Positions 1 through 29,129 of a stretch of 39,710 bases of DNA are shown in pieces. This DNA is from Minisyncoccota bacterium. Its GTDB lineage: Bacteria > Patescibacteriota > Minisyncoccia > UBA6257 > 02-FULL-45-10c. Below the pieces are notes generated by a model. That model was not told where the DNA came from. It made no database searches and worked only from the letters and a program-made list of their open reading frames with translations. How positions within the stretch are numbered: the first letter of the stretch is position 1; each line of letters opens with the position of its first letter. Where the stretch lies: NCBI GenBank assembly GCA_028715395.1, contig JAQURY010000002.1:11977-51686 (forward strand), in the 5' to 3' direction. The position numbers and the translations under genes are program-made.

Positions 1-127
1 GAGTTACCTCCATTGCGAATGCGGCTTTAACAGAAGCGCAGATAACGTCCATCCTTTCCTTACTTTCAACGTTTGGAGCTGATGCGACTACAGTTGCTAA
101 CGTAAACGCTTCATTGCGTGGACAAGC
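1..127 (+). repeat. Perfect 127-nt direct repeat, copy 1 (identical to 5442-5568)
   Basis: Base-by-base comparison; first mismatch at 128 (t) versus 5569 (c). Confidence 0.97.
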
Positions 128-3100
128 TACTACTGGGACGACAACTACAACCACAGGCACAGCGGTATCAACCGTTCTCGCTAATTCCGGCGCCCTCACT
201 GTCGGAAGCAGAGGAGAAGCGGTAAAAGCTTTACAGCAATACCTCAATGCCAATGGCGCAGTAGTTGCCACTTCCGGAGCTGGCTCAGTCGGCAATGAAA
301 CCACTTACTTTGGTAACGCGACAAAAGCTGCTTTAGCCAAATGGCAGGCGGCGAATGGAGTTTCCCCAGCGGCTGGATATTTTGGTTCTATAACAAAAGC
401 CAAAATGGTTTCACTCGCCGGAGGAGCGACCACTACAACAACAACCGGAACAACTACCACGACAACCACAACCTCAAGTTCCAATGGAACTTTGACCGTT
501 TCGGCTGGCGTGCAGCCTGTTTCCTCTCTCGCTCCTGCGAGTTCTTCAAACGTTCCTTTCACTAAGGTCGTTTTGACAGCAACTGGCGGAGCAGTAACAG
601 TTAATTCATTAACTGTTGAAAGACAGGGATTGGCCGCGGACGCGGTATTCTCCAGCGTTGTATTGTTGGATGAAAATGGCAATCAGATCGGTCTCACAAA
701 GACCTTGAATGCCAATCACCAAGCGAGCATCGGAGAAGCATTTACAATTGCTGCTGGATCTTCCAGAACTCTGACTATCGCTGCTAACCGCGCGGCTTAC
801 AACGGAACCTATAACGGCATGACCGTTTCTTTGGCTCTCGTTGGAATCAGCGCGACACCTTCAATCACATTAGCTTCCAATATTACTGGAGCTACGCATA
901 CAGTTAACGAAACATTAACAATTGGTTCAGTGTCAGTTGCACGCGGTCCTTTGGATCCGGGCGCTGGACAGACCAAGGAAGTCGGCACAACCGGATACAC
1001 GTTCTCTTCTTTGAAGATTACTGCCGGATCTGCTGAAAAGGTTTATCTTAAGTCCATCCGCTGGAACCAGACCGGTTCTGTAGGATCTGCTGACTTAGCG
1101 AATCTCAAGACTTACGTTGATGGCGTTGCTTATGACTCGACGATCAGTTCCGATGGAAAGTATTATCTTACCAATTTTGGAACTGCTCTCTTGATTGATA
1201 AAGGAGGATATAAAGAAGTTTCCATTAAAGGTGATATCGTTGGCGGATCCGCAAGGACCATCGACTTCGATGTTGCTAAGAGAACAGATATCGTCGTAGT
1301 AGGAGAAACCTACGGTTATGGAATTCTCGCGGCGTTCGGCAGTGGTACAACCACTACTTTGGATGACGGCGAAATCATGACTGCGGATGATCCGTACTAT
1401 GATGCTTACCAGGCGGAAGTTTCTGCCGGAACAATGACCGTTTCTACTTGGAACGGAGTTGCCGCCCAGAACATTGCGCTTAACTTAGCTGACCAGCCGA
1501 TTGGTGGTTGGACAGCTTCTGTAAAGGGTGAGCCGATTTCTGTTGCTAGTCTTGTATTTGCCATTTACACCCCTAATGACACCACTGCTGAAGTTGATAT
1601 GGTGAAATTGGTGAAGGAAGATGGAACAGTGGTAGCTGGACCGGTCGATCCGACTGGAACAGGCACTACTGGAACAATTACGTTCACAGATACAATTACA
1701 TTCCCAGTTGGAACAACTAACTTGAAGTTGTTGGCCAAGATGTCTACGGATATCGGAAATGGACACACAATTAATGCTTCCACTTCTCCGCAAACACAAT
1801 GGACTTCAGCTACAGGTCAGACAACCGGTAAAACAATTACCATTGCTCCTAATTCCATGTTGGCTGGACAGACAATGACTGTTAAGGGCCCAGCTCTTAC
1901 AATCAGCGTTTCTTCAGTTCCGATAGCGCAAACAGTTATCGGCGGAAACACAACAGAGTTTGCTAGATATATCTTAGACACCTCCGCTTCCGGAGAAGAC
2001 ATCCGTTTGGTAAGTTTGCCAATCGCGTATGATCAGACCGGTGGAGCTGCTACAGATGTTTCTAACTGCCAACTCTACGATGGAACTGCGTCTTTGACGA
2101 CTGGTTCTAACGTTAAGAATCCTACAGCGGTCAGCTCTTCAACTGCGTTTACGTTTGACGGAACTGGATTGGTTATCTCAAAAGGATCCTCCAAGACCCT
2201 CACTCTTAAGTGCGATTTGAAAGCCGCAGCTGCGGGAACTTATTACTGGGGCTATGACTCTGACGCTTCTCCGTCTCCGACCGGCGTAACTTCCGGACAA
2301 TCGGTGGCGGCCGCTGATTTGGTTGAGAACGACAGCGTGGGACAGAGGATGACTTCGACAACTCAGGGCAGCATGACTGTTGCTTTGGATTCCGGATCAC
2401 CTTCTTACGCGGTTGCCGCTCCTGGCCAGACAGTTGAATTAGCCAGAATCAAGTACACTGCTACTAATGAAGACGTCAAAATCAGGCAAGTTGCTTTGCA
2501 GCTCACAGGTGGAGCGAGCAATACTCCTGTTGACTTGACTTACCAGACAGTCACTTTGAACACCGTTGACGGAGTTCAGATCGGTACTGCTGTATTCTCT
2601 TCGGGCGATACCGCCACTTCCAGCCAAATTGCTGATGGCGCGTTTACAGTTGCGAAGGACGGATACAAAGTATTGGTCATCAAGGGAACTATTGCGGGAA
2701 TTTCCGCTTCCGGTCCTTTGACAGCTTCCGGCGACTTGATAAAAGTTGACTATGATGGAGACAATGTAGGAACAGATGGTAACTATGGTGTTGGATCTTC
2801 TTCGGGAAGCAACATCAGCGGAACAGCTACAGATACAGCTTCTTCGGGAGCTCGCATCATGAAGTCCTATCCGACATTTGCCAACATTGCTTTGTCTACA
2901 GCTGAAAAAGTTTTGGTTGAAGGAGATGCGAAGACATTGTACAAATTCAGCGTTACTGCCAATAATGGCGATATCGCTTTGTACAAATTAGCCTTCAGCG
3001 TTTCATCTTCATCCGTTAAGGCGACTACCAGCAAATTTGCTTTGTACGCCTTTACCGATTCTGCGATGACCACGGGCGATTCTACGGCCGCGGGCGTAGG

Positions 3101-3593
3101 CGGATTGGTTAACTTCGGCAGCTGCTACAACGGTCTCGGTGACAACTATTCTTCGACAACCAGCCCTACTTCCGGACAGCTTAGGCATCCGGGTACCTTG
3201 GGAACTGGTTCTATGGGAGTAGACATCGTGCCGGATAAGACTGGATGCAACACTGGTACAACCACTATGGTTATTGCCAGCGGTCAGACCCGCTACTTCA
3301 AATTAGTCGGATCTGTCAGTGCATTAGCCGCTTCCGGAACTTCCGAGAGCATTCAGGTCAGATTGGATGGCGATGCCGCGTTCCCGGTTAACTCTGCTAA
3401 TTTGATGCAGAAAGCCGCCAACATTAATTCTGCCAGAGCTGCAGGTATTGATAACGACACCAATAACAAGTTTATTTGGTCGCCGAGATCAACATCTACT
3501 GCTGCCAGCATTAATGACTTGGATTGGACAAACGGATACGGATTATCCGGATTGCCTGGAACAGGTATGACATCTGAAACACTCAGCAAATAA
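1..3593 (+). CDS. Secreted surface protein, 5'-truncated: PG-binding_1-like domain, Thr-rich linker, multiple beta-sandwich-like modules
   Basis: Frame is open from nt 3 (VTSIANAALTEAQITSILSLLSTFGADATTVANVNASLRGQAT...), so the listed TTG start at 114 is not the real start. The paralog at 5375 shows the missing signal peptide. PG-binding-like KALQQYLNANG...YFGNATKAALAKWQAANG, then TTTTTTGTTTTTTTTSSS. Confidence 0.85.
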   Translation, partial: VTSIANAALTEAQITSILSLLSTFGADATTVANVNASLRGQATTGTTTTTTGTAVSTVLANSGALTVGSRGEAVKALQQYLNANGAVVATSGAGSVGNETTYFGNATKAALAKWQAANGVSPAAGYFGSITKAKMVSLAGGATTTTTTGTTTTTTTTSSSNGTLTVSAGVQPVSSLAPASSSNVPFTKVVLTATGGAVTVNSLTVERQGLAADAVFSSVVLLDENGNQIGLTKTLNANHQASIGEAFTIAAGSSRTLTIAANRAAYNGTYNGMTVSLALVGISATPSITLASNITGATHTVNETLTIGSVSVARGPLDPGAGQTKEVGTTGYTFSSLKITAGSAEKVYLKSIRWNQTGSVGSADLANLKTYVDGVAYDSTISSDGKYYLTNFGTALLIDKGGYKEVSIKGDIVGGSARTIDFDVAKRTDIVVVGETYGYGILAAFGSGTTTTLDDGEIMTADDPYYDAYQAEVSAGTMTVSTWNGVAAQNIALNLADQPIGGWTASVKGEPISVASLVFAIYTPNDTTAEVDMVKLVKEDGTVVAGPVDPTGTGTTGTITFTDTITFPVGTTNLKLLAKMSTDIGNGHTINASTSPQTQWTSATGQTTGKTITIAPNSMLAGQTMTVKGPALTISVSSVPIAQTVIGGNTTEFARYILDTSASGEDIRLVSLPIAYDQTGGAATDVSNCQLYDGTASLTTGSNVKNPTAVSSSTAFTFDGTGLVISKGSSKTLTLKCDLKAAAAGTYYWGYDSDASPSPTGVTSGQSVAAADLVENDSVGQRMTSTTQGSMTVALDSGSPSYAVAAPGQTVELARIKYTATNEDVKIRQVALQLTGGASNTPVDLTYQTVTLNTVDGVQIGTAVFSSGDTATSSQIADGAFTVAKDGYKVLVIKGTIAGISASGPLTASGDLIKVDYDGDNVGTDGNYGVGSSSGSNISGTATDTASSGARIMKSYPTFANIALSTAEKVLVEGDAKTLYKFSVTANNGDIALYKLAFSVSSSSVKATTSKFALYAFTDSAMTTGDSTAAGVGGLVNFGSCYNGLGDNYSSTTSPTSGQLRHPGTLGTGSMGVDIVPDKTGCNTGTTTMVIASGQTRYFKLVGSVSALAASGTSESIQVRLDGDAAFPVNSANLMQKAANINSARAAGIDNDTNNKFIWSPRSTSTAASINDLDWTNGYGLSGLPGTGMTSETLSK

Positions 3594-3623
3594 TTTTTAG
3601 AACTTGAGATTCTAAAAGTTATG

Positions 3624-3652
3624 CAAACACCCCTCTTTTCGAGGGGTGTTTG
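3624..3652 (+). terminator. Hairpin terminator after surface protein gene
   Basis: caaacacccctc-ttttc-gaggggtgtttg: perfect 12-bp stem, 5-nt loop, followed by attttatg. Confidence 0.8.
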
Positions 3653-3704
3653 ATTTTATGCCCGGTTTTTGCCAACTCTATTATTTTTATCGATTAAAGA
3701 GTAA

Positions 3705-3710
3705 TATTAT
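3705..3710 (+). promoter_or_regulatory. Candidate -10 box (TATTAT) 5 nt before ATG 3716
   Basis: gtaaTATTATttacaATG; no Shine-Dalgarno between box and start. Confidence 0.4.
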
Positions 3711-3715
3711 TTACA

Positions 3716-5356
3716 ATGATTGCCTTGAAGAGATTTTTAACTACCAGAAATATTTTAATTGCTGTTTTGGTTTTAGGGGCGGTTTTGCGTTTTTGGGGAA
3801 TTAATTCGGCGGAAATTTTCCATGATGAGGGATTATACGCTTTTCGTTCCATCGGATATTTCGATTATATTCAGAATCAGGACCAAACTCAGCCGGTTCA
3901 ATGGTTCAAAGATTTAAAGGAAATGCCTTTTTGGACGAATTTGTCTTTTCATGACGCGCCTCCGCTTTTTTTCCTGACCCAGCACTTGTCTTTCAATGTT
4001 TTTGGTGAGAATCTTTTTGCGGCGCGTCTTCCCTCGGTTTTAGCCGGAATAATCCTGATATATCTTATTTTTTTGACAGTTAAGGTAATTTTACGCGACG
4101 AAAAAATGGCGCTTTTGGCGGCGTTTTTTGCGAGTATTAACCACGCTATGGTTTGGATTTCCCGCTCCAGCCTGATGGAATCGGTTTTATTTTGCCTGGT
4201 TGCTTTTAATTTTTACGCCTTTTTGAAAATTATCGGGGAGGAAAAACAGGGAAAGTGGTGGTGGATTTTTGGAGTAAGCCTGGGTTTGTGCTTTTTGACC
4301 AAATACACGGCTGTTTTTCTTATTCCGGCTTACGCGCTTTATATTTTGTTTTTTGAGGCGAAGATTTTGCGCGAATGGCGTTTCTACGCGGGTTCATTTT
4401 TGGCATTTCTGATTTTTTTGCCGGTTATAATTTATAATATTTATCTTTATAAATCGACCGGCCATTTTGATTTGCAAATTGCTTATGCTTTGGGCCAAAA
4501 AACTCCGGAGTGGCAGGCGTCAATCGGGAAAATTCAGGAACCGTTTAATAATTTTGTTTCCAATCTTTTATCAATATTTACAATTTCTTCTTTATTCGCG
4601 TTTTTGGGAGCCGTAGCTTTATCGGCCTGGCTTCTTGTAAAAAAACAAAATAATCTGGCGATTTTGGGCTGGCTGGCGGCTGTTTTTATGATTTTAATGT
4701 TTATTTTGACGGGGACGGCTTTTCGTTTTGTCGCGTTGTTCAGCTTGCCGCTGGTTATTACAACCATTCTGGCTTTTTCATATTTAAAAGAAAAATTCGA
4801 CAAGAGCGTTATTTTAAAGGTTTTATTGGCTGTTTTTTTGGCTTATGAATTGTTTTTTACGGTCGGAGGATTATTTTTTGAATTTCCCGATTATGGAGTG
4901 GTAAAACTGGATAAATATTTTGACGAAACTTTTGGGGACGTCCGTTCGGCCGCAATGCCTAATTCTCCAAACCCACATTTGGAGAAGGTGATTAAAGACA
5001 ATCTCGTAAATTATAAAGCGAGCACAACTTCTTTTATGGTTGTTTTTGATGAAAATATAATTCTTTCAACAAAGCTGTGGGTTTTCGCCAGGAGGAATTT
5101 TTATCACGGAATACCGGCGATAGCCACGGGCCAATTCAAGAATTTCTTGCAAACGGCAGGCGAATCGTATTTTAAGGGCTATGACATTTATTTTGTGAAG
5201 GCAAGCCCTTATACGGCGATAAATCCCAATATCGATGTTCCTGAGGCGGGAATATTGGAAAATTTTCTCAGGACATCCATGAAGCTGAATCCCATAAAGA
5301 TAATTTACGACCGGCAAAATATTCCAATGTATTTTGTATATAAATTTACTTTGTAG
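3716..5356 (+). CDS. GT-C fold glycosyltransferase, ArnT/PMT (GT39/GT83)-like integral membrane protein
   Basis: N-terminal TM followed by FHDEGLYAFRSIGYFDY acidic loop motif; many hydrophobic segments; C-terminal soluble domain. Confidence 0.8.
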   Translation: MIALKRFLTTRNILIAVLVLGAVLRFWGINSAEIFHDEGLYAFRSIGYFDYIQNQDQTQPVQWFKDLKEMPFWTNLSFHDAPPLFFLTQHLSFNVFGENLFAARLPSVLAGIILIYLIFLTVKVILRDEKMALLAAFFASINHAMVWISRSSLMESVLFCLVAFNFYAFLKIIGEEKQGKWWWIFGVSLGLCFLTKYTAVFLIPAYALYILFFEAKILREWRFYAGSFLAFLIFLPVIIYNIYLYKSTGHFDLQIAYALGQKTPEWQASIGKIQEPFNNFVSNLLSIFTISSLFAFLGAVALSAWLLVKKQNNLAILGWLAAVFMILMFILTGTAFRFVALFSLPLVITTILAFSYLKEKFDKSVILKVLLAVFLAYELFFTVGGLFFEFPDYGVVKLDKYFDETFGDVRSAAMPNSPNPHLEKVIKDNLVNYKASTTSFMVVFDENIILSTKLWVFARRNFYHGIPAIATGQFKNFLQTAGESYFKGYDIYFVKASPYTAINPNIDVPEAGILENFLRTSMKLNPIKIIYDRQNIPMYFVYKFTL

Positions 5357-5362
5357 ATTTGT

Positions 5363-5368
5363 TATAAT
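5363..5368 (+). promoter_or_regulatory. Candidate -10 box TATAAT, 6 nt before ATG 5375
   Basis: gtTATAATtaatttATG. Confidence 0.5.
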
Positions 5369-5374
5369 TAATTT

Positions 5375-6496
5375 ATGAGTAAATTATCAGTTAAAATCTC
5401 AATTGCTGCGGTTTCAGTTTTAACCGCTCTTTCGCTCTCTGGAGTTACCTCCATTGCGAATGCGGCTTTAACAGAAGCGCAGATAACGTCCATCCTTTCC
5501 TTACTTTCAACGTTTGGAGCTGATGCGACTACAGTTGCTAACGTAAACGCTTCATTGCGTGGACAAGCCACCTCGGCAAGCTCGGGGCAGGCCACTTCTG
5601 GGACGACAACTACAACTACTTCTAGCACAGCGGTCCCCGCTGTTCTTTTGACTTCCGGCAATCTTACGGTCGGATCAACGGGAGAAGTAGTTAAAGCTTT
5701 GCAGCAATATCTTAATGCAAGCGGTTACGCAGTTGCCCTTTCCGGAGCTGGCTCAGTCGGCAATGAATCTACTTACTTTGGTAACGCGACAAAAGCTGCT
5801 TTGGCCAAATGGCAAGCGGCGAATGGGATTTCTGCGACTGGATATTTCGGATCAATAACGATAAGCAAGCTTAATGCGCTGGCTTTGGCGGCAAAGGCTT
5901 CGGTAATAACAACGCCAGCAACTCCGGCGGAAACTTCAACAACAATTTCAACTTCAACGGCAGTTTCCGTTCCGGAAACAACGGCAACTACCACTCCGGC
6001 AGTTGTAACGCCCTCATGTCCAAAGGAATATTCATTGAAGATGACGGTTGAATATCCATCACATACTGTCAGCACGTATACGGACATGATTTTAAATGAA
6101 TTTGTTTTTTCGGCCACTCAGCCGACGGCAATTACCAAAATAAAATTTACCAACTCGGGAACGATGCCCGATTATAATTTTTTCAGTGAAATCAGACTGA
6201 TTAATTCCGCGACGGACGCTATTTTGGCAACTTCTACCATCAGTAACGGAACGATTCAATTTAATTTAACCGCCGATCCGGCAAAAGCCGACAAAAATCT
6301 GATGGTTTCCGGAGGCAGATATTATATTCAAACCACGATTTTAACTCCGGGATACGAAGTTAAAAAGAAAATTACTTTGGACGTCAATTTGGCTACGGAC
6401 ATAACGGCGGTCGATTATAATGACCTGAGTTGCGCCGTTGAGACCGCAAAAAACAATACTTTCCCGATCGGAGGACCGATATTGGTTATTTATTAA
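5375..6496 (+). CDS. Secreted PG-binding_1-like surface protein, paralog of the first gene
   Basis: Signal peptide MSKLSVKISIAAVSVLTALSLSGVTSIANA; KALQQYLNASGYAVALSGAGSVGNESTYFGNATKAALAKWQAANG; Thr/Ser/Ala-rich linker; one C-terminal beta-rich module. Confidence 0.85.
   Translation: MSKLSVKISIAAVSVLTALSLSGVTSIANAALTEAQITSILSLLSTFGADATTVANVNASLRGQATSASSGQATSGTTTTTTSSTAVPAVLLTSGNLTVGSTGEVVKALQQYLNASGYAVALSGAGSVGNESTYFGNATKAALAKWQAANGISATGYFGSITISKLNALALAAKASVITTPATPAETSTTISTSTAVSVPETTATTTPAVVTPSCPKEYSLKMTVEYPSHTVSTYTDMILNEFVFSATQPTAITKIKFTNSGTMPDYNFFSEIRLINSATDAILATSTISNGTIQFNLTADPAKADKNLMVSGGRYYIQTTILTPGYEVKKKITLDVNLATDITAVDYNDLSCAVETAKNNTFPIGGPILVIY
5442..5568 (+). repeat. Perfect 127-nt direct repeat, copy 2 (identical to 1-127)
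   Basis: Base-by-base comparison with the window start. Confidence 0.97.
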
Positions 6497-6559
6497 AAAT
6501 GCGTTTTTATCGGCATTTAATTGACTCTGATTAAAATCGGGGGTATTTTAAAATGGTTC

Positions 6560-8191
6560 ATGGGTAAAAATCATAAATTGATTTATAAAATAATTTTGTT
6601 TTCCATTATTGTTTTGGCGTTCGGAATAAGAATATACGGGCTGGAAAACAAAGACATAATCGGCGATGAAGGGGCGTATTCTTTCAGGGCGGAAGGATAT
6701 CTTGATTATTTGGGAACGAGTTTCCAGACCCAGCCGATTGAATGGTTTAAGGATGCCGATTTGCCGTTTTGGACGAAACTTTCGTTTCATGACGCTCCGC
6801 CGCTTTATTTTTTAATACAGAATTTATTCTTCAATATTTTCGGGGATAGCGGAGTGACGGCGCGGCTGTCGTCTGTTGTTCTGGGGGCGGCTTCGGCCTG
6901 GCTGATTTATGCGCTGGCAAAAATGTTCGCCGGAGAAATCGCGGCTTTGTTGGCGGCTTTTGTATTTGCTGTCGGCAACGCGGGCGTGTTTCTGGGAAGG
7001 GCGGCTTTAATCGAGCCGGTCTTGCTGTTTTTTGTTTTGCTGAATATTTACGCATTTTTCAGGTTTATCAGGGATAATCGCTGGTGGTGGGCGTTTGGAG
7101 CCAGCTTCGGATTAGTTATTCTGGCCAAATATACCGGAATATTTTTGATTCCCGCATATCTTATTTATATGCTTTTGGCGGAACGGAAATTATTCGGGAA
7201 CTGGAAGTTTTACGCCGCTTTTCTGATAGCGCTTGTATTATTCAATCCCGTGATAATTTATAACATCCAGCTTTACCGCGCTGTCGGGCATTTTGATCTC
7301 CAAGTTTCTTATTTTTTGGGACAGGATACTCCGGAATGGAGCGGATTGGTTGGCAAGACACAGTCTCCGTTCAGCGACATTTTGAAGAATTTGAAAGAGA
7401 TTTACGGATTGACCGGATTAATTGCAGCGGCAATCGGATTTTTGGCGGCAATTTTCATGATTTTAAAGAAAAAAATCAGAGAAATCTGGTTTGTTTTCGC
7501 GTATATTCTATGCCTGACTTTAATGCTTATTGCCATTGGTTCGGCCACCAGGTTTGTGGCGCTTTATGCTCCGGCTTTTGCGATTTTGATTGCGGCGGGC
7601 GCGGTTTTAATTTGGGAAATATCAAAAAACCGTTATGTAAAATTTATTTTATTGATTTTACCGGCCGGATTTTTGGTTCAGCAGGCTTATTTTACGTATG
7701 AAAAGAATTTCACGGAATTTCCGGATTTCGGGATAGCAAAACTTGATAATTTTTTGCAGAAAGAATTTAAGGGAATAGCATCGGGCGCGATTCCCCAAAC
7801 CGATAATAAACATCTTAACGATGTAATAAATAAATTTTCCAAGAAAGACGCAGATAGCGCCAAAAGATTGTTTGCGGTGGTTTATAACGACAATATCGCC
7901 CTGCCCACCTTGGAATGGATTTTTTACAGAAGGTTTTTCTATCATGCTGTTCCTACTATGTATGTGGAAAATTTTATAAGATCGTTGAAAGAGCAGGATT
8001 TTAATAATTTTGACATTTACTTTGTTCAAAGCACGGAAAATACGCTTTTAAATCCTTTCAAAATAGAAAAAACCGCCGGTTTTCAGTTTGAAGAAAATCT
8101 GAAAAATTCCGGGAAAATGCCGGTAGAAATAATAAGGGGAGATGAAGACAGAGAAATGTTCAGGGTTTACAAATTCAGCCTTAAGGGCTAA
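6560..8191 (+). CDS. GT-C glycosyltransferase paralogous to 3716-5356
   Basis: IGDEGAYSFRAEGYLDY..QTQPIEWFKDADLPFWTKLSFHDAPPLYFL aligns with the first copy. ATG at 6560 (MGKNHKLIYK) preferred over TTG at 6521. Confidence 0.8.
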   Translation: MGKNHKLIYKIILFSIIVLAFGIRIYGLENKDIIGDEGAYSFRAEGYLDYLGTSFQTQPIEWFKDADLPFWTKLSFHDAPPLYFLIQNLFFNIFGDSGVTARLSSVVLGAASAWLIYALAKMFAGEIAALLAAFVFAVGNAGVFLGRAALIEPVLLFFVLLNIYAFFRFIRDNRWWWAFGASFGLVILAKYTGIFLIPAYLIYMLLAERKLFGNWKFYAAFLIALVLFNPVIIYNIQLYRAVGHFDLQVSYFLGQDTPEWSGLVGKTQSPFSDILKNLKEIYGLTGLIAAAIGFLAAIFMILKKKIREIWFVFAYILCLTLMLIAIGSATRFVALYAPAFAILIAAGAVLIWEISKNRYVKFILLILPAGFLVQQAYFTYEKNFTEFPDFGIAKLDNFLQKEFKGIASGAIPQTDNKHLNDVINKFSKKDADSAKRLFAVVYNDNIALPTLEWIFYRRFFYHAVPTMYVENFIRSLKEQDFNNFDIYFVQSTENTLLNPFKIEKTAGFQFEENLKNSGKMPVEIIRGDEDREMFRVYKFSLKG

Positions 8192-8202
8192 AATAATACA
8201 TT

Positions 8203-8979
8203 ATGAAGAAAAATATAATTTTAATAGCAATAGTATTGATTTTGGCCGCGGGAGCCGTATGGCTTGCTTCAAAAAAACCGGTTTCCCAGCCTATTTCGGA
8301 AAATCCCGGCGCTGGCGATAATGCCGCGACAACAACGGATAGCCAGACAAACAATGGCGGTTCAACGAATCCGGCGGTTGATGGCAATAAAACAAAAGCG
8401 TTTGAGATTTTAGATAAGGAATTTGTTTTCAAAACAGATATCCCCGAAAACGATAAGCAGAAAATAACGGCAAAATTGAACGAATTGGCGGACTTATTGA
8501 AAAAAAATTACAAGTATTTTGAAGCCTGGATAGATTTTGGAAACTACAAGAAGTTGGGAGGCGATTATACCGGCGCGATAGAAGCGTGGAAGTTTGCGAG
8601 CATTATTAATTCCGTTAACGCGGTTCCTTACCACAATTTGGGAGATGTATATACTTTTACTTTGAGGAATTATTCCGAAGGCGAAAAATATTTTTTGAAA
8701 TCAATCAGTGTGGCGCCGGGAAATACCGATGCCTATGTCCAGCTGGCGACTATTTACCAGTATTTGGATTTATCAAAATCCGATCAAGTTGAATCGATCT
8801 TGCTTAAGGGCGTAAACGCCAATACGGGAAGTCCCACTTTAAGGGTGCGATTAGCGGATTATTACCTGGAAAAAGGAGATAAAGTTAACGCTTTGAAATA
8901 TTACGAAGAAGCATTTCTATTGGATCCTGCCAATAAGGCGCTGGAGCAACAGGTAGCGGAACTTAAGGCGGCGCTTTAA
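8203..8979 (+). CDS. Membrane-anchored TPR-like protein
   Basis: Single N-terminal TM, Thr/Asn-rich linker, then TPR-like helices (YFEAWIDFGNYKKLGGDYTGAIEAWKFASIINSVNAVPYHNLGDVY...ALKYYEEAFLLDPANKAL). Confidence 0.75.
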   Translation: MKKNIILIAIVLILAAGAVWLASKKPVSQPISENPGAGDNAATTTDSQTNNGGSTNPAVDGNKTKAFEILDKEFVFKTDIPENDKQKITAKLNELADLLKKNYKYFEAWIDFGNYKKLGGDYTGAIEAWKFASIINSVNAVPYHNLGDVYTFTLRNYSEGEKYFLKSISVAPGNTDAYVQLATIYQYLDLSKSDQVESILLKGVNANTGSPTLRVRLADYYLEKGDKVNALKYYEEAFLLDPANKALEQQVAELKAAL

Positions 8980-10076
8980 GCTTTGTATATTTCTTCCGTC
9001 TTGGAAATCATCTTTGAGATGAGGAATTTTTCTTGGACGGTTTTAGCGGCCGAAGTTTTAAATTTGACGGCAAGTGTTTGATTATTCCGGACTTTAGAAA
9101 TCGCGTCGGCAAGAGCTTGAGGATTTTTTTGTGGAACAACGAACCCGTTTTCGTTGTTTTTTATAATTTCGGGCATTCCGCCCGCTTTCGTAACTATGGC
9201 GGGCAATTCCGCGGTCATGGCTTCCAGAAGCGTATAAGGAAGGCCCTCTTTTATTGAAGAAAGAGTAAAAACATCAAATGCCGTCAGGTATTTAAAATCT
9301 TCTCCTTCGGGTTCAATAAGAAATAAGTTATTAAGTTTTAAGTTATAAGTTATAAGTTTTAATTTTTCCGATTCGGGCCCGCTTCCGATTATAAAAAACG
9401 GAGTACTTGGCAATAAGGCTGCGGCGCGTATTAATGTTTCATAATTTTTTTCTTTAGTAAGACGGCCGATAGAGCCAATCCAACGCTTATTTGATAATTC
9501 AGGACTGAAAGCCGGAAGCTTTTTGATTATTTTATTACGAGCTTCATTTTTATCCAGAAAATTGATATCCGGATTTACACCGTTATAAATCGTCACGATT
9601 TTTTCTTGCGGGGCGATTTTATATCTTATCGCCAGTTGGCGGTCGTATTCGGAAACGCAGATTATTTCGTCTTGGAACAAAGCCGCGATTTTATGGAGTA
9701 AAATGTAAAATTGGCGGACGGGCGCGGCTATCGCGTTATCCGGATTAAAAACCCAGCCGTGAGCGGTGAAAATTATTTTTCCCTTTCCGTATATTTTTGC
9801 AGAGATAGTTCCGAGTACGCCGGCCTTGGAACTGTTCAAGTGAATTATGTCGGGATTTTCTTTTTTAAATAATTTCACCATTTCAAAAATAGCCATCCAA
9901 TCGTTAAAAAACAAAAACCAGGGGCTGGTTTTGTTCGAAAGCCATTTAAGGTCTTTTCCTCCGTAAATAATCCTGGATTTAAATTCATTTTTATCCAGAT
10001 TTTCGGACAAATCCCTCACGTATTTTTGCGCTCCGCCGGTATCGGATTTTGTTATAATATAGAGGACTTTTTTCAT
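8976..10076 (-). CDS. GT4-family glycosyltransferase
   Basis: N-terminal TKSDTGGAQKYVRDLSENL; GRLTKEKNYETLIRAA; GSGPE; SSIKEGLPYTLLEAMTAELPAIVTKAGGMPEII. Confidence 0.85.
   Translation of the reverse strand: MKKVLYIITKSDTGGAQKYVRDLSENLDKNEFKSRIIYGGKDLKWLSNKTSPWFLFFNDWMAIFEMVKLFKKENPDIIHLNSSKAGVLGTISAKIYGKGKIIFTAHGWVFNPDNAIAAPVRQFYILLHKIAALFQDEIICVSEYDRQLAIRYKIAPQEKIVTIYNGVNPDINFLDKNEARNKIIKKLPAFSPELSNKRWIGSIGRLTKEKNYETLIRAAALLPSTPFFIIGSGPESEKLKLITYNLKLNNLFLIEPEGEDFKYLTAFDVFTLSSIKEGLPYTLLEAMTAELPAIVTKAGGMPEIIKNNENGFVVPQKNPQALADAISKVRNNQTLAVKFKTSAAKTVQEKFLISKMISKTEEIYKA
9322..9357 (-). repeat. Heptanucleotide tandem repeat (ACTTATA-like on coding strand) inside GT4 CDS
   Basis: + strand aataagt t attaagt tttaagt tataagt tataagt; reverse complement gives ACTTATA-ACTTATA-ACTTAAA-ACTTAAT; encodes KLITYNLKLNN. 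Confidence 0.85.
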
Positions 10077-11299: not shown

Positions 11300-12420
11300 G
11301 AATTTTAATAACAACCGGGATTTTTCCGCCGGATATCGGCGGACCGGCAACGCAAATAGAACATTTGGCTTCGGGATTGGCCGGAGCGGGATTTGGCGTA
11401 TCGGTTTTGACTTACGGAAGTCCCGAAAATAAAAAAAGAAATTATGAATTAACCGGCGTTTCAAGAAAATTAGGACCGCTGAAACAGGTTTTTTACGGAA
11501 TTAAAACTTTTATGCTGGCGCAGAAAACCGACGCGATTTATACGACCGATCTTTATTCGCCGGGTTATTTTTCGATGCTGGCCGCAAAATTTTGGAAAAA
11601 GAAATTTGTCGTAAGATTTGCGGGTGATTCGGCCTGGGAAACGGCGTTAAACAAGGGATTGACGCAGGACGGCATCCTGGAATTTCAGGATAAAAAATAC
11701 AATTCTTTTATTGAAAAGCTGAAAGGCCGCCGCGCCCGGATTTTAAAATCAGCCGATACTGTGGTGGCGGTAAGCAATTTTATGAAGGATTTGGCGGTAA
11801 AAATAGGCGTTGATTCGCGCAGAGTCAGCGTTATTTACAATGCTGTTGATTTCCGGGATAACTTGCCGAAACATGAAAATTCAAACGCGCCGACGCTGGT
11901 TTTTGTAGGCAGGCTGGTTCCGTGGAAGGGAGTGGAAATGTTAATTAACGCCGTTTCAAAATTGAAAAATAAATATCCGGATATTATGCTGGAAATTTTG
12001 GGAGATGGTCCGGAAATGAAAAACTTGCAACTTATAACCGATAACTTAAAACTAAAAAACAACATTAATTTCAGGGGGCGGATTAATTCGCGCGAAACAA
12101 TGGAAATTTTGGCAAAAGCGGCTGTTTTTGTTTTGAATACAAATTATGAAGGATTGCCGCATACGGTTTTGGAGGCGATGAGCATAGGCGTTCCTGTGAT
12201 TACCACGCCGGTTGGCGGCAACGTTGAAGTGGTGCAAAATGGAATAAACGGCCTTTTGGCGCGATATAACGATGAGGGCGCCTGGATAAAGGCGATTTCC
12301 GAACTTCTGAATGACGCGAATCTGCGAAAAAAATTAGCCGAAAATGCCAAAAAAATGCTGGAGAAATTCAAATGGGAAGAATTGATGGCGAAAACAGTAG
12401 AGGTTTTTAAAAAATTATGA
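11296..12420 (+). CDS. GT4-family glycosyltransferase
   Basis: TGIFPPDIGGPATQIEHLASGLAGAGFGVSVLT; YNAVDF; GRLVPWKGVEMLINAV; GDGPE; NYEGLPHTVLEAMSIGVPVITTPVGGNVEVV; 4-nt ATGA overlap with upstream gene. Confidence 0.9.
   Translation: MRILITTGIFPPDIGGPATQIEHLASGLAGAGFGVSVLTYGSPENKKRNYELTGVSRKLGPLKQVFYGIKTFMLAQKTDAIYTTDLYSPGYFSMLAAKFWKKKFVVRFAGDSAWETALNKGLTQDGILEFQDKKYNSFIEKLKGRRARILKSADTVVAVSNFMKDLAVKIGVDSRRVSVIYNAVDFRDNLPKHENSNAPTLVFVGRLVPWKGVEMLINAVSKLKNKYPDIMLEILGDGPEMKNLQLITDNLKLKNNINFRGRINSRETMEILAKAAVFVLNTNYEGLPHTVLEAMSIGVPVITTPVGGNVEVVQNGINGLLARYNDEGAWIKAISELLNDANLRKKLAENAKKMLEKFKWEELMAKTVEVFKKL
12023..12057 (+). repeat. Heptanucleotide tandem repeat inside GT4 CDS
   Basis: ACTTGCA-ACTTATA-ACCGATA-ACTTAAA-ACTAAAA; encodes NLQLITDNLKLKN after GDGPEMK. 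Confidence 0.85.
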
Positions 12421-13874
12421 GAAAGATAATTTTAATAAATCCTGCTTTTAATACGGTTAAATCGAAATATGACACCAGTTTGTCGGTGGGGCTTTTGTGC
12501 ATTGCTTCATATCTTCACAAAAGGCAGGCGCCGGTGAAAATTATCGATTGCGCCAGGCAGGAAAATTGGGAATCGGAGCTGGAAAAAGAATTGCCGGACG
12601 CGGGCTATGCGGGACTTTCGGTTATGACCTCGCAAATTCCTTCGGCCATGCAGATTGCGGAAAAAATCAGAAAATCAAATCCGAAAATAAAATTAATCTG
12701 GGGAGGAGCGCATGTGACATTTTTCCCAAAAGAAACTTTGGAAAACAAGCTGGTTGATTTTATCGTTTTGAACGAAGGAGAAGAAACTTTGATGGAATAC
12801 ATGAAAGAGGAGGAAGGCGCAAGGCAATTTTCAAAAGTAAACGGGCTGGGCTATAAGGAAAACGGAAAAATATTTATAAATCCTCAGCGGGCGCTTTTGC
12901 CGATGAGCGAGATACCTTTGCCGAATTGGGATCTGATGCCTTTGGAAATTTTGAAGCGCCTGGAACTTGTGCCGACGCACACTTCGCGCGGCTGCCCGCA
13001 CCGCTGTTCTTTTTGCATCAATGCCATTACCAAAAATCGCTGGAGAATGAGAGACGCGAAAGAGGTTTTGAAAGACATTGAAATTATCAGGTCCAAGCCG
13101 TATTTCAAAGGGAAGAAAATCCGTTTTTGGGACGAGAATTTTTTTGTGGATTTGGACAGAGCTAGGGAAATAGCCGAACTGATGGTTTCGCAAAATATGG
13201 TGATTCCCTGGGAAACCACCATCAGAGCGGATTATTTTTCGCGTCCGGAACTGACAGAAGAGTTTATTTCCAAGCTGAGGAAATCGGGATGCTATCTGCT
13301 TTCTTTCGGAGCGGAATCGGGTTCGGTTAAAATACTGAAAAAAATAGACAAGGACATCACCAAGGAAGAAATTTTGAATTCCGCGAAAAGATGTTTAGGA
13401 CAGGAAATAATTCCCCAGTATTCGTTTATGGTGGGACTGCCGGGCGAGCAGAGGGAAGACATGGACCAGACAATGAATTTAATCGATGGCTTGCTGAAAT
13501 TGAGCGGTAAGGTTCAGATTTTGGGGCCGCAGGCGTTCAGGCCTTATCCGGGTTCGCCGCTATATCAGGAGTGCCTTGACGCGGGCTGGAAAGCGCCGCA
13601 AGGAATGGAAGAATGGGCCAATGCCATTAAAAATGAAATGAGCTTTTTAACGCCATACCAATTTCCGTGGGTTAAGGATCCGGATCTGGTAAGTTCTCTT
13701 GAGGCGTATGCCAGATTTGGAGCGCAAAGCCTGAAGAGCGCGCTCGGCTCAACCGTCACTTCAAATAAGTTTCTGAAATTTTTATTCGCTTTGATATGCA
13801 AATTGAGGTGGAAATTGAGATTTTTCAAATGGCCGATAGAATATAAATTGGCGAAAAAATACGTAGCGGGATAA
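12417..13874 (+). CDS. B12-binding-type radical SAM protein
   Basis: N-terminal Rossmann-like domain (SVGLLCIASYLHKR...IKLIWGGAHVTFFPKETL), then TSRGCPHRCSFCINAI (CxxxCxxC). Confidence 0.85.
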   Translation: MRKIILINPAFNTVKSKYDTSLSVGLLCIASYLHKRQAPVKIIDCARQENWESELEKELPDAGYAGLSVMTSQIPSAMQIAEKIRKSNPKIKLIWGGAHVTFFPKETLENKLVDFIVLNEGEETLMEYMKEEEGARQFSKVNGLGYKENGKIFINPQRALLPMSEIPLPNWDLMPLEILKRLELVPTHTSRGCPHRCSFCINAITKNRWRMRDAKEVLKDIEIIRSKPYFKGKKIRFWDENFFVDLDRAREIAELMVSQNMVIPWETTIRADYFSRPELTEEFISKLRKSGCYLLSFGAESGSVKILKKIDKDITKEEILNSAKRCLGQEIIPQYSFMVGLPGEQREDMDQTMNLIDGLLKLSGKVQILGPQAFRPYPGSPLYQECLDAGWKAPQGMEEWANAIKNEMSFLTPYQFPWVKDPDLVSSLEAYARFGAQSLKSALGSTVTSNKFLKFLFALICKLRWKLRFFKWPIEYKLAKKYVAG

Positions 13875-17504: not shown

Positions 17505-18623
17505 ATGGATACCGAAAGAAAGAGAAAAATTTTATTTGCGATAAATGACTTGGGCTATGGAGGAGGGCAATTGACTGTGGTCCACGAGGCCAATCTTTTT
17601 TTTAAAAACGGGCACGATGTTAAAGTGCTTTTGTTTTTGCCGCGCGAGAAACAGGAGTTGGCGGATTTTCTGATAATCCCCAAAGAAAATGTTTCAATCA
17701 TTCCTTTCAAGTCATTTTTTGACGCAGGATCTTTCATCAAGCTGATTAAGTTTTTGAAGGCCAATAAACCGGACGTAATTTTGAGCAATTTGTTTTTCAC
17801 CAATTTTATGACGCGGACGGCGAAATTGTTTTTCCCGCGGATTAAGGTTTTTGTCAGAGAAGGCAATGTGCCGGTGGAGAAAAGCTTATGGATGAAGATT
17901 TTCGATTTCAAGGCGTCTTTTTTGACCAAAAAAATAATCGTAAATGCCGCGGCTATCAAAGAAAGCTTCATAAAAGAATTAAAAATTCCGGCGCGTAAAA
18001 TGGAGGTGATTTACAACGGAATAGACGAGAAGTTTTTCAAAAAGAACGATTTCAGGGATAAGCGCAAAGATTTCGGTTTGAAAAAAGACGATTTTGTTTT
18101 AATTAATGTTTCCAGCATGAATTCCGTCAAAAAAGGGCATTCGTATCTTATAGAAATCGCCGAGAAGCTTGTTAAAAACAACAGCGATAAAATCAAATTG
18201 GTCATGGTGGGAGACGGCAAGCGGAAAAAAGAATTGGAAAAAATGGCTTATGACAGAGGCATAAGCGGCAATGTTCTGTTTGCGGGAGGCCAAAATGACG
18301 TTGAGAAATGGCTTGGAATGGCCGATGTTTTTGTCCTGACGTCATTATGGGAGGGAATGCCCAATGCTATGCTGGAAGCGATGGCAATGGGGCTGCCGGC
18401 CGTGGCGTTCAACGTCGGGGGGGTGGAAGAAGCGCTGGAAGACGGGGTTAACGGATTTTTAATCAAGCCAGAAGATCAGAACGGATTTATCGGAGGAGTT
18501 CTGGAAATTATGGCGAACAGGGAGCTGAGAGGCGTTATGTCCAAACGGGCGATTGAAACTGCAGAAAGATTTACCTGGTCGAATCATTTTGAACAATTGG
18601 AAAAACTTATATGTGCGGAATAA
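17505..18623 (+). CDS. GT4-family glycosyltransferase
   Basis: FAINDLGYGGGQLTVVHEANLF; YNGIDEKFF; GDGKRKKELEKMA; TSLWEGMPNAMLEAMAMGLPAVAFNVGGVEEAL. Confidence 0.88.
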   Translation: MDTERKRKILFAINDLGYGGGQLTVVHEANLFFKNGHDVKVLLFLPREKQELADFLIIPKENVSIIPFKSFFDAGSFIKLIKFLKANKPDVILSNLFFTNFMTRTAKLFFPRIKVFVREGNVPVEKSLWMKIFDFKASFLTKKIIVNAAAIKESFIKELKIPARKMEVIYNGIDEKFFKKNDFRDKRKDFGLKKDDFVLINVSSMNSVKKGHSYLIEIAEKLVKNNSDKIKLVMVGDGKRKKELEKMAYDRGISGNVLFAGGQNDVEKWLGMADVFVLTSLWEGMPNAMLEAMAMGLPAVAFNVGGVEEALEDGVNGFLIKPEDQNGFIGGVLEIMANRELRGVMSKRAIETAERFTWSNHFEQLEKLICAE

Positions 18624-20335
18624 GCGGATTTAATTTTAAAGACGAAAATTTGCTGGGGAAAATGATGGACGAGCAATGGCATCGCGGTCCGGACCAGTCC
18701 GGGACTTTTTTTGATAACTCGGTGAGCTTGGGGCACAACAGATTATCAATTATAGATTTGTCGGAAAAAGCCAAGCAGCCGATGGTAAGCGATGACGGAA
18801 ATTACAAGATTATTTTTAATGGGGAAATTTACAATTTCAAGGAACTTAGAAAAAAGCTGGAAAAGAAATATAAATTTTTCAGTGATTCCGATACCGAGGT
18901 CGTTTTGCGCGGCTACGAGGAATATGGAGACAAGATTTTCGGGATGCTGGACGGAATGTGGGCGCTGGCAATTTATGACAAGCAAAGAAATGAGCTTGTT
19001 TTGAGCAGGGACTATGCCGGCATAAAGCCTCTTTATTATTATTGGAATGACGGCAAATTTGTTTTTGCCTCCGAATTGGCGGCGATTAAAAAATTGAATA
19101 TTCCTCTTACGGTTAATAAAGAAATTTTTACCGCGGTTTTATCGTTCGGTTTTGTTCCGGCGCCGTATTCCTTATATAAGGAAGTCAGCAAGGTTTTGCC
19201 CGGAGAGATTTTGAAGCTTGATTTGGATAAGAAAATTTTAAATAAAAGCGGGATAGAACTAAGTCCGTTGGAGGGAATAAATAACGATAAAGAAATCATT
19301 GAAAAGGCGGAAGAAATTTTGGCGGAAAGCGCCGAGCGCCATTTGATAGCGGATGTAGAGGTAGGGCTATTCTTGTCGGGAGGAAACGATTCCAGCCTGC
19401 TGGCGGCTATTTTGAAGGAAAATGGCCGTAAAATACCGGCTTTTTGCCTTGAAATAGAAGGCCGGAAAGACGCGGAATATGCCCGGAAGGTGGCGGAGCG
19501 GCTGGACTTAAAGCTTTATACGCATAAAGTTACGGTTAAGGATTTCAGGGAGGTATACGATAAAATTTTCAGCGGACTAAAAGAACCTTTGGCCGATACG
19601 GCGATTTTTTCTTCTTATCTGATTTCGCGTTTTGCCAGGGAAAAAGTAAAAGTGGTTTTGTCCGGAGAGGGCGGAGATGAATTGTTCGGCGGATATTTTA
19701 CGCATCGCCATCTGGCCGATTTGAAAAATCCCAAATGGCCGGAAAGCAATTTCGTAGACAAAATATTTTCAAGATTTCCTGATTTTAAAGGAAAAAAGAC
19801 TTTATTGGATTTTATTTATAAGCTTCAAAGTGATGCCTTGGGATTATATTTGAACAATCTTTCTACGGCTTATTTGTATGATACGGCGGCGCAGAGAAAG
19901 TTTTTCCATAAATTGAAAAACATCCGGCCGTTTTATTACGATTTGAATTCCTATCTCCCCGACAGGCTGCTCTATAAATTGGATTATTCCGCCATGGCTT
20001 TTTCGCTTGAAGGAAGAGTGCCTTTTTTGGACAAGGAAATGATAAGATTTTCTTTAAATGAAAATGTGAGAAAGTTTTCGGAGAAAAACAAAAACAAATT
20101 TATTCTTAAATCATTGCTTAAGAAATATTTACCCGAAGAAATCGTAAATCGTCCCAAGGAAGGATTCAGTGTTCCGTTGGCGGAATATTTTGAAAAAATG
20201 CCGGAATTCCAGAATGATTATCAAAAAGCGCTGAGGTGGGCGGAGTCCAATGTCGGCTTGCCGATTTCCAAAATCAAAAATGCGGCCGGAAAAACGAAAT
20301 TTAATCTGGTGGCGTTATATAAATCATTGGCATGA
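18611..20335 (+). CDS. asnB: Glutamine-dependent asparagine synthase-like amidotransferase
   Basis: MCGISGF (Cys2 nucleophile), HRGPDQSG, NGEIYNF, synthetase PP-loop LFLSGGNDSSLLAAI, SGEGGDELFGGY, SLEGRVPFLD. Confidence 0.88.
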   Translation: MCGISGFNFKDENLLGKMMDEQWHRGPDQSGTFFDNSVSLGHNRLSIIDLSEKAKQPMVSDDGNYKIIFNGEIYNFKELRKKLEKKYKFFSDSDTEVVLRGYEEYGDKIFGMLDGMWALAIYDKQRNELVLSRDYAGIKPLYYYWNDGKFVFASELAAIKKLNIPLTVNKEIFTAVLSFGFVPAPYSLYKEVSKVLPGEILKLDLDKKILNKSGIELSPLEGINNDKEIIEKAEEILAESAERHLIADVEVGLFLSGGNDSSLLAAILKENGRKIPAFCLEIEGRKDAEYARKVAERLDLKLYTHKVTVKDFREVYDKIFSGLKEPLADTAIFSSYLISRFAREKVKVVLSGEGGDELFGGYFTHRHLADLKNPKWPESNFVDKIFSRFPDFKGKKTLLDFIYKLQSDALGLYLNNLSTAYLYDTAAQRKFFHKLKNIRPFYYDLNSYLPDRLLYKLDYSAMAFSLEGRVPFLDKEMIRFSLNENVRKFSEKNKNKFILKSLLKKYLPEEIVNRPKEGFSVPLAEYFEKMPEFQNDYQKALRWAESNVGLPISKIKNAAGKTKFNLVALYKSLA

Positions 20336-25423: not shown

Positions 25424-26122
25424 ATGCATAAACTTTCAATAATAATTCCTTCTTACAACGAAAAAGCGACCATTGAAGAGCTGATTAAACGGGTGAAAGC
25501 GGTTAATCTGGACAATATCGAAAAAGAAATTATCGTCATTGACGACGGCTCAAAGGACGGAACGAGAGACATAATAAAATCCATTCCGGGAATAAAATAC
25601 GTTTTTCATGAAAAAAATCTCGGCAAAGGAGGGGCGGTGAAAACCGGTTTCCATAAGGCTACTGGAGATATTGTGATTATTCAGGACGCCGATTTGGAAT
25701 ACGATCCGGAAGATTACAAAAAAGTTTTGAAGCCGATTTTAATCGGCCAGGCTGATGTCGTTTACGGTTCGCGTTTTTTGACCGGCGAACCGAAGAGAGT
25801 TTTGTTTTTCTGGCATTTGATGGGCAATAAATTTTTATCTTTTATTTCTAATTTATTGACCGGGCTGACTTTGACCGATATGGAAACTTGCTACAAGGTG
25901 TTTACCAAAGAAGTAGTGGATTCGTTTAAAGACAAGCTGGTGTCCCAAAGATTTGGCATAGAGCCCGAATTGACGGCGAGAATGGCAAAAGGAAAATGGA
26001 GAATATACGAAGTGGGAATCGCATATTACGGCAGATCATATGAAGAAGGCAAAAAAATCGGTTTTTGGGACGGAGTATCCGCGATTTGGCACGTAATAAG
26101 ATTTAATATATTCAGCAGATAA
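25424..26122 (+). CDS. GT2 glycosyltransferase (DPM1-like)
   Basis: SIIIPSYNEKATIEELIKRV; VIDDGSKDGT; NLGKGGAVKTGF; QDADLEYDPEDY; YGSRFL. Confidence 0.88.
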   Translation: MHKLSIIIPSYNEKATIEELIKRVKAVNLDNIEKEIIVIDDGSKDGTRDIIKSIPGIKYVFHEKNLGKGGAVKTGFHKATGDIVIIQDADLEYDPEDYKKVLKPILIGQADVVYGSRFLTGEPKRVLFFWHLMGNKFLSFISNLLTGLTLTDMETCYKVFTKEVVDSFKDKLVSQRFGIEPELTARMAKGKWRIYEVGIAYYGRSYEEGKKIGFWDGVSAIWHVIRFNIFSR

Positions 26123-27537
26123 TGAAAAGATTAAAAGTTCTCTTGATGAGGCCGGGCTCCCGGTCTGATGAATTAATTCCGCCTTTCGGCTTGGGTTATT
26201 TGACTACCGCCATAAGAAAAAAACACGACGTTGAGGTTTTGGACGGAATCAAAGAACAGCTGACGCCGGAAAAATTAGAGGAAATTTTAAAAACAAAAAA
26301 ATATGACATTATCGGAATCCAGATATTCACTTTTCACGTGGTGGCGGCGAAAGAATATATTAAAGCGATTAAAAAAGTCAGCCGGAAAATTAAAATAATT
26401 TTCGGCGGACCTCATCCGTCCTGCGGTTTTGCCAATATATACCAGCTTTTTCCGGATATTGATTGGGCATTCAGGGGAGAGGCCGAAGTCGGCCTGGCCA
26501 GATTGCTGGATTTGATTGCCGAGGGCAGAGCCGAAGAAAAAGAGCAATTAATGACGGTTCCGGGATTAATTTGGAGGATGGACGGAAGAACAGTGGTAAA
26601 TCAGCAGATATTCGTCGATGATTTGGACGAGCTGGGAACGCCGAGCTGGGATATTTTGAGACCCGATACTTATCCACTGGCTCCTCACGGAGGTTTTTTC
26701 AAAAATTTTCCGATAGCTCCGATTGTCATTACTAGGGGATGTCCGTTTTCCTGCACTTATTGCGCGGGCAATCTCATAAGCGGAAAGAAAATAAGATTCA
26801 GAAGCGTGGACAATGTCATTGAAGAAATAAAATTATTGCATAACGAATACGGCATAAAAGAAATTCACATAGAAGACGACAATTTTACTTTCAGTCCTGA
26901 TTTTGTGAAAGATTTTTGCAGAAAACTGAAAGCGACGGGATTTAACATGACTTGGACGTGCCCGAACGGAGTCAGGCTTGATTCTTTGTCGGAGGAAATG
27001 CTTATGACCATGAAAGACGCCGGGCTTTACAGTATTTCCGTCGGAATAGAATCGGGCTCAGATAGAATCCTGAAAGAAATGAAAAAAAATCTGACCAAAG
27101 ACGTTATCCGCGAAAAAGTGGCTCTGATTAAAAAATGCGGACTGGAAATTTCGGGATTTTTCATAATCGGTTATCCGGGAGAAACAGTTAAAGACATAAT
27201 GGATACGATTGATTTTTCGATAGAGCTGGGACTGAAGCGCGCCGGGTTTTCTCTTTTCAAGCCTTTTCCGGGAACGGAAATTACGAGAAATCTTATAGAG
27301 AGAGGAGAGTTGAAAGAAATGTCCGATGAGGATTGGGGAAGGTTCGTTCTGGCGGACGCGATTTATGCGCCCAGAGGATTTACCGTGGAACAGATGAAAA
27401 AATTGAGGCGCAAAGCTTTAATGAGATTTTATTTCAGGCCGGTGATAGCCTGGAAATTCCTGAGGGAAATCAGGAACTTTAAGCATCTGAAACTGGTTAT
27501 ACATAGAATATACAGCTGGTTGTTTAAGGCCAGATAA
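26122..27537 (+). CDS. B12-binding-type radical SAM protein
   Basis: PPFGLGYLTTAIRKKHDVEVLDG...IIFGGPHPSCG; VITRGCPFSCTYCAGN (CxxxCxxC); SVGIESGSDRIL; FIIGYPGET. Confidence 0.88.
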   Translation: MKRLKVLLMRPGSRSDELIPPFGLGYLTTAIRKKHDVEVLDGIKEQLTPEKLEEILKTKKYDIIGIQIFTFHVVAAKEYIKAIKKVSRKIKIIFGGPHPSCGFANIYQLFPDIDWAFRGEAEVGLARLLDLIAEGRAEEKEQLMTVPGLIWRMDGRTVVNQQIFVDDLDELGTPSWDILRPDTYPLAPHGGFFKNFPIAPIVITRGCPFSCTYCAGNLISGKKIRFRSVDNVIEEIKLLHNEYGIKEIHIEDDNFTFSPDFVKDFCRKLKATGFNMTWTCPNGVRLDSLSEEMLMTMKDAGLYSISVGIESGSDRILKEMKKNLTKDVIREKVALIKKCGLEISGFFIIGYPGETVKDIMDTIDFSIELGLKRAGFSLFKPFPGTEITRNLIERGELKEMSDEDWGRFVLADAIYAPRGFTVEQMKKLRRKALMRFYFRPVIAWKFLREIRNFKHLKLVIHRIYSWLFKAR

Positions 27538-28725: not shown

Positions 28726-29129
28726 TTCAAGAAAATTGGGCATACAGCGAAACGGTAAAAGACCATTTTTTCAATCCGAGAAATTATCTGAGGGAAACGG
28801 ATGATTTCAAGGCGGACGGAAAAGGAACCGCGGGCAGTCCCGTTTGCGGCGATTTGCTTACGGTCTGGATAAAAGTGGACGGAAATAAAATAAAAGAGTG
28901 CAAATGGCAGACATTCGGCTGCGCTTCGGCCATCGCGTCTTCTTCGATGATGTCGGTGATGGCGACGGAAAACGGCGGAATGGATTTGGATGAAGCAATG
29001 AAACTGGAGCCGAAAAAAATAATGGAACGGCTCGGCGGTTTGCCGGACGAAAAATTCCATTGCTCGGTTTTGGGGCATCTGGCTTTGAGGGAGGCGATAA
29101 AGGATTACCGCAGTAAAAACGCCAAGTAA
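28722..29129 (+). CDS. iscU: Fe-S cluster scaffold (IscU/NifU-N-like)
   Basis: Three Cys motifs: GSPVCGDLLTVWI, TFGCASAIASSSMMS, KFHCSVLGHLALREAI; ATGA overlap with iscS. Confidence 0.9.
   Translation: MIQENWAYSETVKDHFFNPRNYLRETDDFKADGKGTAGSPVCGDLLTVWIKVDGNKIKECKWQTFGCASAIASSSMMSVMATENGGMDLDEAMKLEPKKIMERLGGLPDEKFHCSVLGHLALREAIKDYRSKNAK

Follow-up and report, generated by a model that had tools for sequence, protein, structure and literature searches.

An S-layer-like protein locus of a paceibacterial family with two PMT_2 glycosyltransferases that may glycosylate the surface proteins

The stretch of DNA analyzed here (the window) comprises 39,710 nucleotides from a Minisyncoccota bacterium (GenBank assembly GCA_028715395.1, contig JAQURY010000002.1, positions 11,977 to 51,686). 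The source genome, termed G000, consists of 715 kb in 41 contigs, and its named relatives are Patescibacteria (Harrisonbacteria, Paceibacterota and 'Ca. Paceibacter'). According to the list of open reading frames (ORFs), the window begins with four consecutive plus-strand ORFs, termed A1, B1, A2 and B2, in the order given by an earlier interpretation made without database searches (the sequence-only reading). We see about an even chance that these genes belong to an S-layer-like protein locus of a paceibacterial family (termed f1), in which the GT-C glycosyltransferases B1 and B2 most likely glycosylate the surface proteins A1 and A2 or their glycan. A1 would be exported via its signal peptide and held on peptidoglycan by its PG_binding_1 domain, with about six Ig-like repeats projecting. 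B2, with a membrane-anchored extracytoplasmic tetratricopeptide repeat (TPR) partner, and B1 would each, on the outer side of the membrane, transfer sugar from a polyprenyl-phosphate carrier to exported acceptors, presumably A1 and A2 or a glycan on them. The TPR protein and B2 would fill the place of a Wzy_C(-TPR) gene beside A1 that resembles O-oligosaccharyltransferases (OTases), the B1-A2 insert would add a second GT-C together with a one-repeat version of A1, and gene conversion would repeatedly have copied A1 sequence over the export and anchor end of A2. Patescibacteria with this locus probably have a sugar-decorated coat. The sequence-only reading had suggested an undescribed system; the locus is instead a variant of known S-layer glycosylation loci, although our literature search found no paper describing the A1-B1-A2-B2 arrangement.

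Domain structure and distribution of A1

A1 (window 1-3593, plus strand; the ORF at 3-3593 is open at its 5' end and the ATG start lies at G000:C5:11810) is composed of an N-terminal helical part, a PG_binding_1 domain (window 210-407, plus strand; residues 70-135 of the open ORF, E 7.7e-9), a Thr-rich linker, about six tandem Ig-like β-sandwich repeats, and a conserved C-terminus. The N-terminus is signal-like, as judged by eye from the sequence. The repeats match one another in profile comparisons (hhalign, up to 99.5%), and the structure model, with a mean predicted local distance difference test score (pLDDT) of 82, displays tandem β-sandwich repeats. Apart from generic Ig-like or cohesin-like folds, no relative of the A1 body was found in Pfam or among solved structures, and the fold search with the whole A1 model returned generic multi-Ig proteins only. 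We infer that A1 is an S-layer-like surface protein, which may form a coat or lattice. A search of the genome for a C-terminal sorting motif shared with A1 found no second copy, and a genome-wide family of A modules was ruled out, just two copies being present in the genome.

An A1 homolog occurs in 161 of the 244 genomes of the order, a count in which many distant matches span only part of A1; there is usually one strong copy, and the typical ORF has 1,050-1,250 aa. The homologs of the A1 body in Buchanan- and Portnoybacteria (239-290 bits) possess a different N-terminal module. Seven loci (L031, L035, L044, L049, L055, L059, and L060) encode distant homologs that keep the repeat body and have PG_binding_1 replaced, in most cases by a module of the SGDL(V/I)K...YxWYxDF type. 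This swap would amount to an anchor exchange across Patescibacteria. In families f2 and f25, genomes also contain, beside or near A1, genes for further proteins (444-468 aa) that combine a PG-binding module with an unrelated body (L135:2089-3441, L148:5951-7357, and L151:16534-17868). No relation between a Thr/Ser-rich linker and the presence of a GT-C gene was apparent by eye: the linker of G241 has a Thr/Ser fraction of 0.77 with no adjacent B gene, and that of G003 has 0.24 with B2.

The glycosyltransferases B1 and B2

B1 (window 3716-5356) and B2 (window 6521-8191, with a TTG start and an in-frame ATG at 6560), both on the plus strand, are paralogous yet diverged, as the sequence-only reading had recognized. 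They share 41% identity over their full lengths (E 4e-130) and match the Pfam family PMT_2 with 95.3 and 97.0 bits, respectively, against a gathering score of 26.1 (E ~1e-27). Both have multiple membrane spans and a weak sequence match to the structures 6p25 (PMT1-PMT2) and 5ezm (ArnT), and an acidic DE motif near the start (D49-E50 of B2) is invariant in B1, B2, and B3. B1 and B2 are thus expected to be GT-C enzymes that move a polyprenyl-phosphate-linked sugar onto exported acceptors. They miss the curated NCBIfam cut-offs for TIGR03663 (Agl23; 29.5 against 126) and ArnT (25 against 567); the best-scoring curated model is that of the flippase-associated Agl23 subfamily, under its cut-off.

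In the tree of B proteins, B1 and B2 fall into two clades, each family-wide (support of 99/97 for the B1 clade and 100/100 for the B2 clade). Members of the B1 clade also occur singly in other families (f19 and f25), remote from A genes. Since the two enzymes belong to separate multi-genome clades, their duplication is old and preceded the radiation of the family. A cassette of A and B duplicated recently is not supported, and the relatives do not show the tandem duplication claimed from the sequence. Conserved A-B adjacency in relatives, a check suggested along with that claim, was confirmed: all 13 B2-clade genes on informative contigs sit at the A1 locus, and two more lie at contig edges.

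A2 and the replacement of its N-terminal module

A2 (window 5375-6496, plus strand) is a small A1-like surface protein with a signal peptide, a PG_binding_1 domain, a Ser/Thr linker, and one A1-type β domain (body at approximately 6014-6496). Contrary to the earlier view that the two bodies are unrelated, the A2 body and one of the A1 repeats match each other (hhalign, 94%; score of 52, compared to at most 18 for column-shuffled decoys), and on this profile evidence A2 is a miniature A1 whose body is one A1-type repeat. Its structure model is cohesin-like, at modest confidence (pLDDT 68). The A2 body was found in eight of the 244 genomes, all of family f1 and each time directly after B1, and two extra weak matches sit within A1-type ORFs. 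The A2 homolog of G004 (L130:9540-10181, 213 aa) has no N-terminal module and is possibly frameshifted or decayed.

The A1-type N-terminal module of A2 (window 5375-5860, plus strand) appears from the module tree and DNA matches to have been replaced or converted from A1. The N-termini of A1 and A2 are 81% identical over 429 columns, and it is only in this module that copies within a genome are closer than orthologs elsewhere. The near-identity at the DNA level noted earlier was confirmed: window 1-127 (plus strand) equals window 5442-5568, that is, A2 nucleotides 68-194, and past this exact tract the A1/A2 DNA is a mosaic of 68-93% identity. A 100-N scaffold gap (G000:C5:11877-11976) lies just to the left of window base 1, inside the A1 coding sequence and within the stretch identical to A2. 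The 67 nt to the left of the gap, from the ATG on, equal the first 67 nt of A2, which brings the identity across the gap to 194 nt. If the gap is spurious, the full-length A1 would have about 1219 aa, and the A1 of G015, from the same genus, has nearly the same N-terminal length as this gap-joined protein. The exact extent of the 194-nt identity is unsafe, because the tract abuts the gap and is exactly 127 nt long, 127 being a typical assembler k-mer length.

In the module tree, one clade (100/99) unites the A2 modules of G012, G013, G014, and G016, which have kept the A2 type, and the A2 modules of G000, G002, and one G011 locus are placed among A1 modules; many inner branches are weak, and the replacement points rest on strong branches or on DNA. 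A1 and A2 of G002 have 310 bp in common at 94.8% identity in genes that are otherwise diverged, with no assembly gap; an A1/A2 DNA match is absent in G012, G013, and G016 and covers 30 bp only in G014. Despite the swapped modules, the A2 bodies are orthologous between genomes. These comparisons support at least two independent replacements of the A2 N-terminal module by A1 sequence (in G000 and G002), in agreement with the homogenization by gene conversion or module replacement that the sequence-only reading had proposed, and the 194-nt tract in G000 likely arose by gene conversion. Such conversion would recur in this paralogous pair only in the module for export and anchoring.

Gene order in relatives and co-divergence

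The gene order HTH-A1-(B1-A2)-TPR-B2-GT4 is kept across genera. HTH denotes a helix-turn-helix gene, TPR the gene of a membrane-anchored TPR protein kept at the A1 locus (window 8203-8979, plus strand, beginning 11 nt past B2), and GT4 a glycosyltransferase gene (window 8976-10076, minus strand) that forms the conserved syntenic boundary of the locus and opens a glycan cluster. The order HTH-A1-TPR-B2-GT4 is found in G015, G005, G003, G188 (GT4 not adjacent), and one G011 locus. A1-B1-A2-(TPR)-B2 is found in G000, G002, G004, G012, G013, G014, the second G011 locus, and, spread across contigs, G016. The TPR gene may stand before or after B2. G011 is a 76%-complete bin with two A1 loci (L124 and L136), one of them with B1-A2, representing either a second locus or a contaminant contig. 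Judging by gene order, the ancestral-looking locus is A1-TPR-B2, with B1-A2 as an apparent older insert between A1 and TPR/B2. Since G015 belongs to the same genus as G000 and has no B1-A2, either it has lost the insert or the insert was acquired in other genomes. At the locus in family f1, B1 never occurs without A2, nor A2 without B1 (8 both, 6 neither; Fisher 3e-4, which is indicative only, the loci being related).

Conserved order could also reflect neutral clustering of unrelated surface genes in small, slowly rearranging genomes, with A and B functionally unlinked. The upstream ClpB, UpM, and HTH genes are likewise conserved, and B1-A2 or B2 is freely dropped in relatives, as this explanation would predict. 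However, the distant Buchanan- and Portnoybacteria also group an A1-type protein with TPR and GT-C/Wzy_C genes, and the co-occurrence of B1 and A2 in eight of eight cases is without discordance. We regard neutral clustering as unlikely.

Co-divergence of A and B had been suggested as a further check and proved not to be specific: the distance correlations were rho 0.33 for A1-B2, 0.77 for A1-TPR, 0.82 for B2-GT4, and 0.73 for B2-HTH, from distance pairs that are not independent. The A1 body and TPR, correlated with each other at rho 0.77, do not track ClpB (0.28 and 0.14), as if A1 and TPR moved or evolved as a unit. The weak A1-B2 correlation also bears on the proposal that a surface substrate was duplicated in tandem together with the O-glycosyltransferase acting on it, and that the two co-evolved as a unit while the bodies diversified. 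The paralogy of the A and B genes, their adjacency, and the homogenized N-termini are what it would predict, but the B1/B2 split is older than the family, the linked unit is B1-A2 rather than A1-B1 plus A2-B2, and the A2 body corresponds to a single A1 repeat. This proposal is mostly refuted, and we consider it very improbable.

Wzy_C genes at A1 loci of other families

At least 32 of the 66 non-f1 genomes checked have a Wzy_C gene no more than about 6 kb away from A1, usually on its downstream side (some of these ORFs have about 450-500 aa and probably no TPR), compared to none of the 12 f1 genomes among the matches listed. Ten large membrane proteins read at A1 loci in other families, and in other phyla, were all Wzy_C; nine have C-terminal TPRs and the remaining one is truncated where its contig ends. 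In family f1, TPR and B2 stand where Wzy_C(-TPR) adjoins A1 elsewhere. By analogy, the order-wide occurrence of Wzy_C genes beside A1 lends support to glycosylation at the f1 locus. The similarity between the TPR protein and the Wzy_C tail (hhalign 97%) was not used as evidence, since any TPRs match.

A broader scenario, which we put forward tentatively, is an order-wide S-layer glycosylation locus in which Wzy_C-TPR was exchanged for a split TPR and GT-C, and to which the second GT-C came with a miniature S-layer protein whose anchor was matched by gene conversion. To our knowledge, how Patescibacteria build the surface that meets their hosts is largely unknown. From the present comparison come order-wide candidates for the coat protein and for membrane enzymes with a possible role in glycosylating it, along with a prediction of which relatives rely on a GT-C and which on a Wzy_C ligase in the equivalent position.

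The downstream glycan cluster and an alternative acceptor

Directly downstream lies a glycan biosynthesis cluster of approximately 25 kb (window 10118-36490, plus strand with one GT2 on the minus strand), encoding many GT4/GT2 enzymes, three further PMT_2 proteins, an asparagine-synthase-like protein, a GDP-mannose dehydratase, a UDP-glucose dehydrogenase, and an epimerase. A GT2 at window 25424-26122 (plus strand) resembles polyprenyl-phosphate hexose/N-acetylhexosamine synthases, below the curated cut-offs, and is a candidate supplier of the GT-C donor sugar. The cluster also contains two B12-binding radical S-adenosylmethionine proteins (window 12417-13874 and 26122-27537) and an IscS-like aminotransferase paired with a NifU/IscU-like protein (window 27547-29129).

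It is possible, though we hold it less probable than glycosylation of A1 and A2, that B1 and B2 instead decorate a surface polysaccharide or lipid-linked glycan made by this cluster, in the manner of ArnT- or Agl23-like side-branching, with the adjacency to A1 and A2 reflecting a shared cell-surface region. The cluster with its PMT_2 genes, the closer co-divergence of B2 with GT4 than with A1, and the Agl23 subfamily as best curated model (below cut-off) are consistent with this alternative. On the other hand, the B2 genes of the entire clade remain at the A1 locus, flanked by A1/A2/TPR on one side and GT4 on the other; B1 is always paired with the surface protein A2 in the family; and the Wzy_C-TPR proteins at the same place in other families are protein-OTase-like.

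Several observations weigh against glycosylation of A1 and A2 by B1 and B2. The two enzymes match no curated protein-glycosylating subfamily, and because G000 has 11 PMT_2 genes, they may not be 'dedicated' to A1 and A2. Neither B1 nor B2 (E<=1e-60) occurs anywhere in G006 or G007, whose genomes are 97% and 99% complete, respectively, and contain A1, so the GT-Cs are optional, whereas the sequence-only reading implied that A1 requires them. Co-divergence specific to A1 and B2 is lacking. Finally, a Wzy_C-TPR gene is located elsewhere in the genome (G000:C33), and that enzyme could glycosylate A1 instead; its neighbors are genes for a Wzx-like flippase and an initiating sugar transferase, and therefore an en-bloc pathway also exists.

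Comparison with known systems

B1 and B2 resemble the PMT/ArnT family of GT-C enzymes in their PMT_2 profile, DE motif, and multiple membrane spans, but score under the ArnT and Agl23 cut-offs, and their clades are so far found only in Patescibacteria. Like bacterial S-layer proteins, A1 has a signal peptide, an N-terminal wall-binding module, and a long β-sandwich array, whereas its anchor is PG_binding_1 rather than SLH or CWB2. Wzy_C-TPR O-oligosaccharyltransferases of the PglL/WsfB type adjoin A1 homologs in many other families, and in both settings a TPR module accompanies the enzyme; the f1 locus differs in having TPR and a GT-C, with Wzy_C-TPR on contig C33 in G000.

The closest parallel is with the S-layer glycosylation (slg) loci. 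The f1 locus differs from them in its GT-C PMT_2 transferases, with no Wzy_C OTase beside A1, in its PG_binding_1 anchor, and in its phylum; no ABC transporter (Wzm/Wzt) was found among the Pfam-scanned ORFs of the window. Three features are shared. The surface-protein gene is close to a glycan cluster, an arrangement that known slg loci do not all share: two Geobacillus species have the S-layer gene near the slg cluster, but P. alvei and Aneurinibacillus do not (PMC2943079). A small TPR gene stands next to a membrane transferase gene, as in Geobacillus, where the TPR protein WsaA adjoins the OTase WsaB; in WsfB/PglL the TPR is carried by the enzyme (PMC2943079). Lastly, the cluster includes an asparagine-synthase homolog (window 18611-20335), corresponding to WsfA of the Paenibacillus alvei slg locus (PMC2943079).

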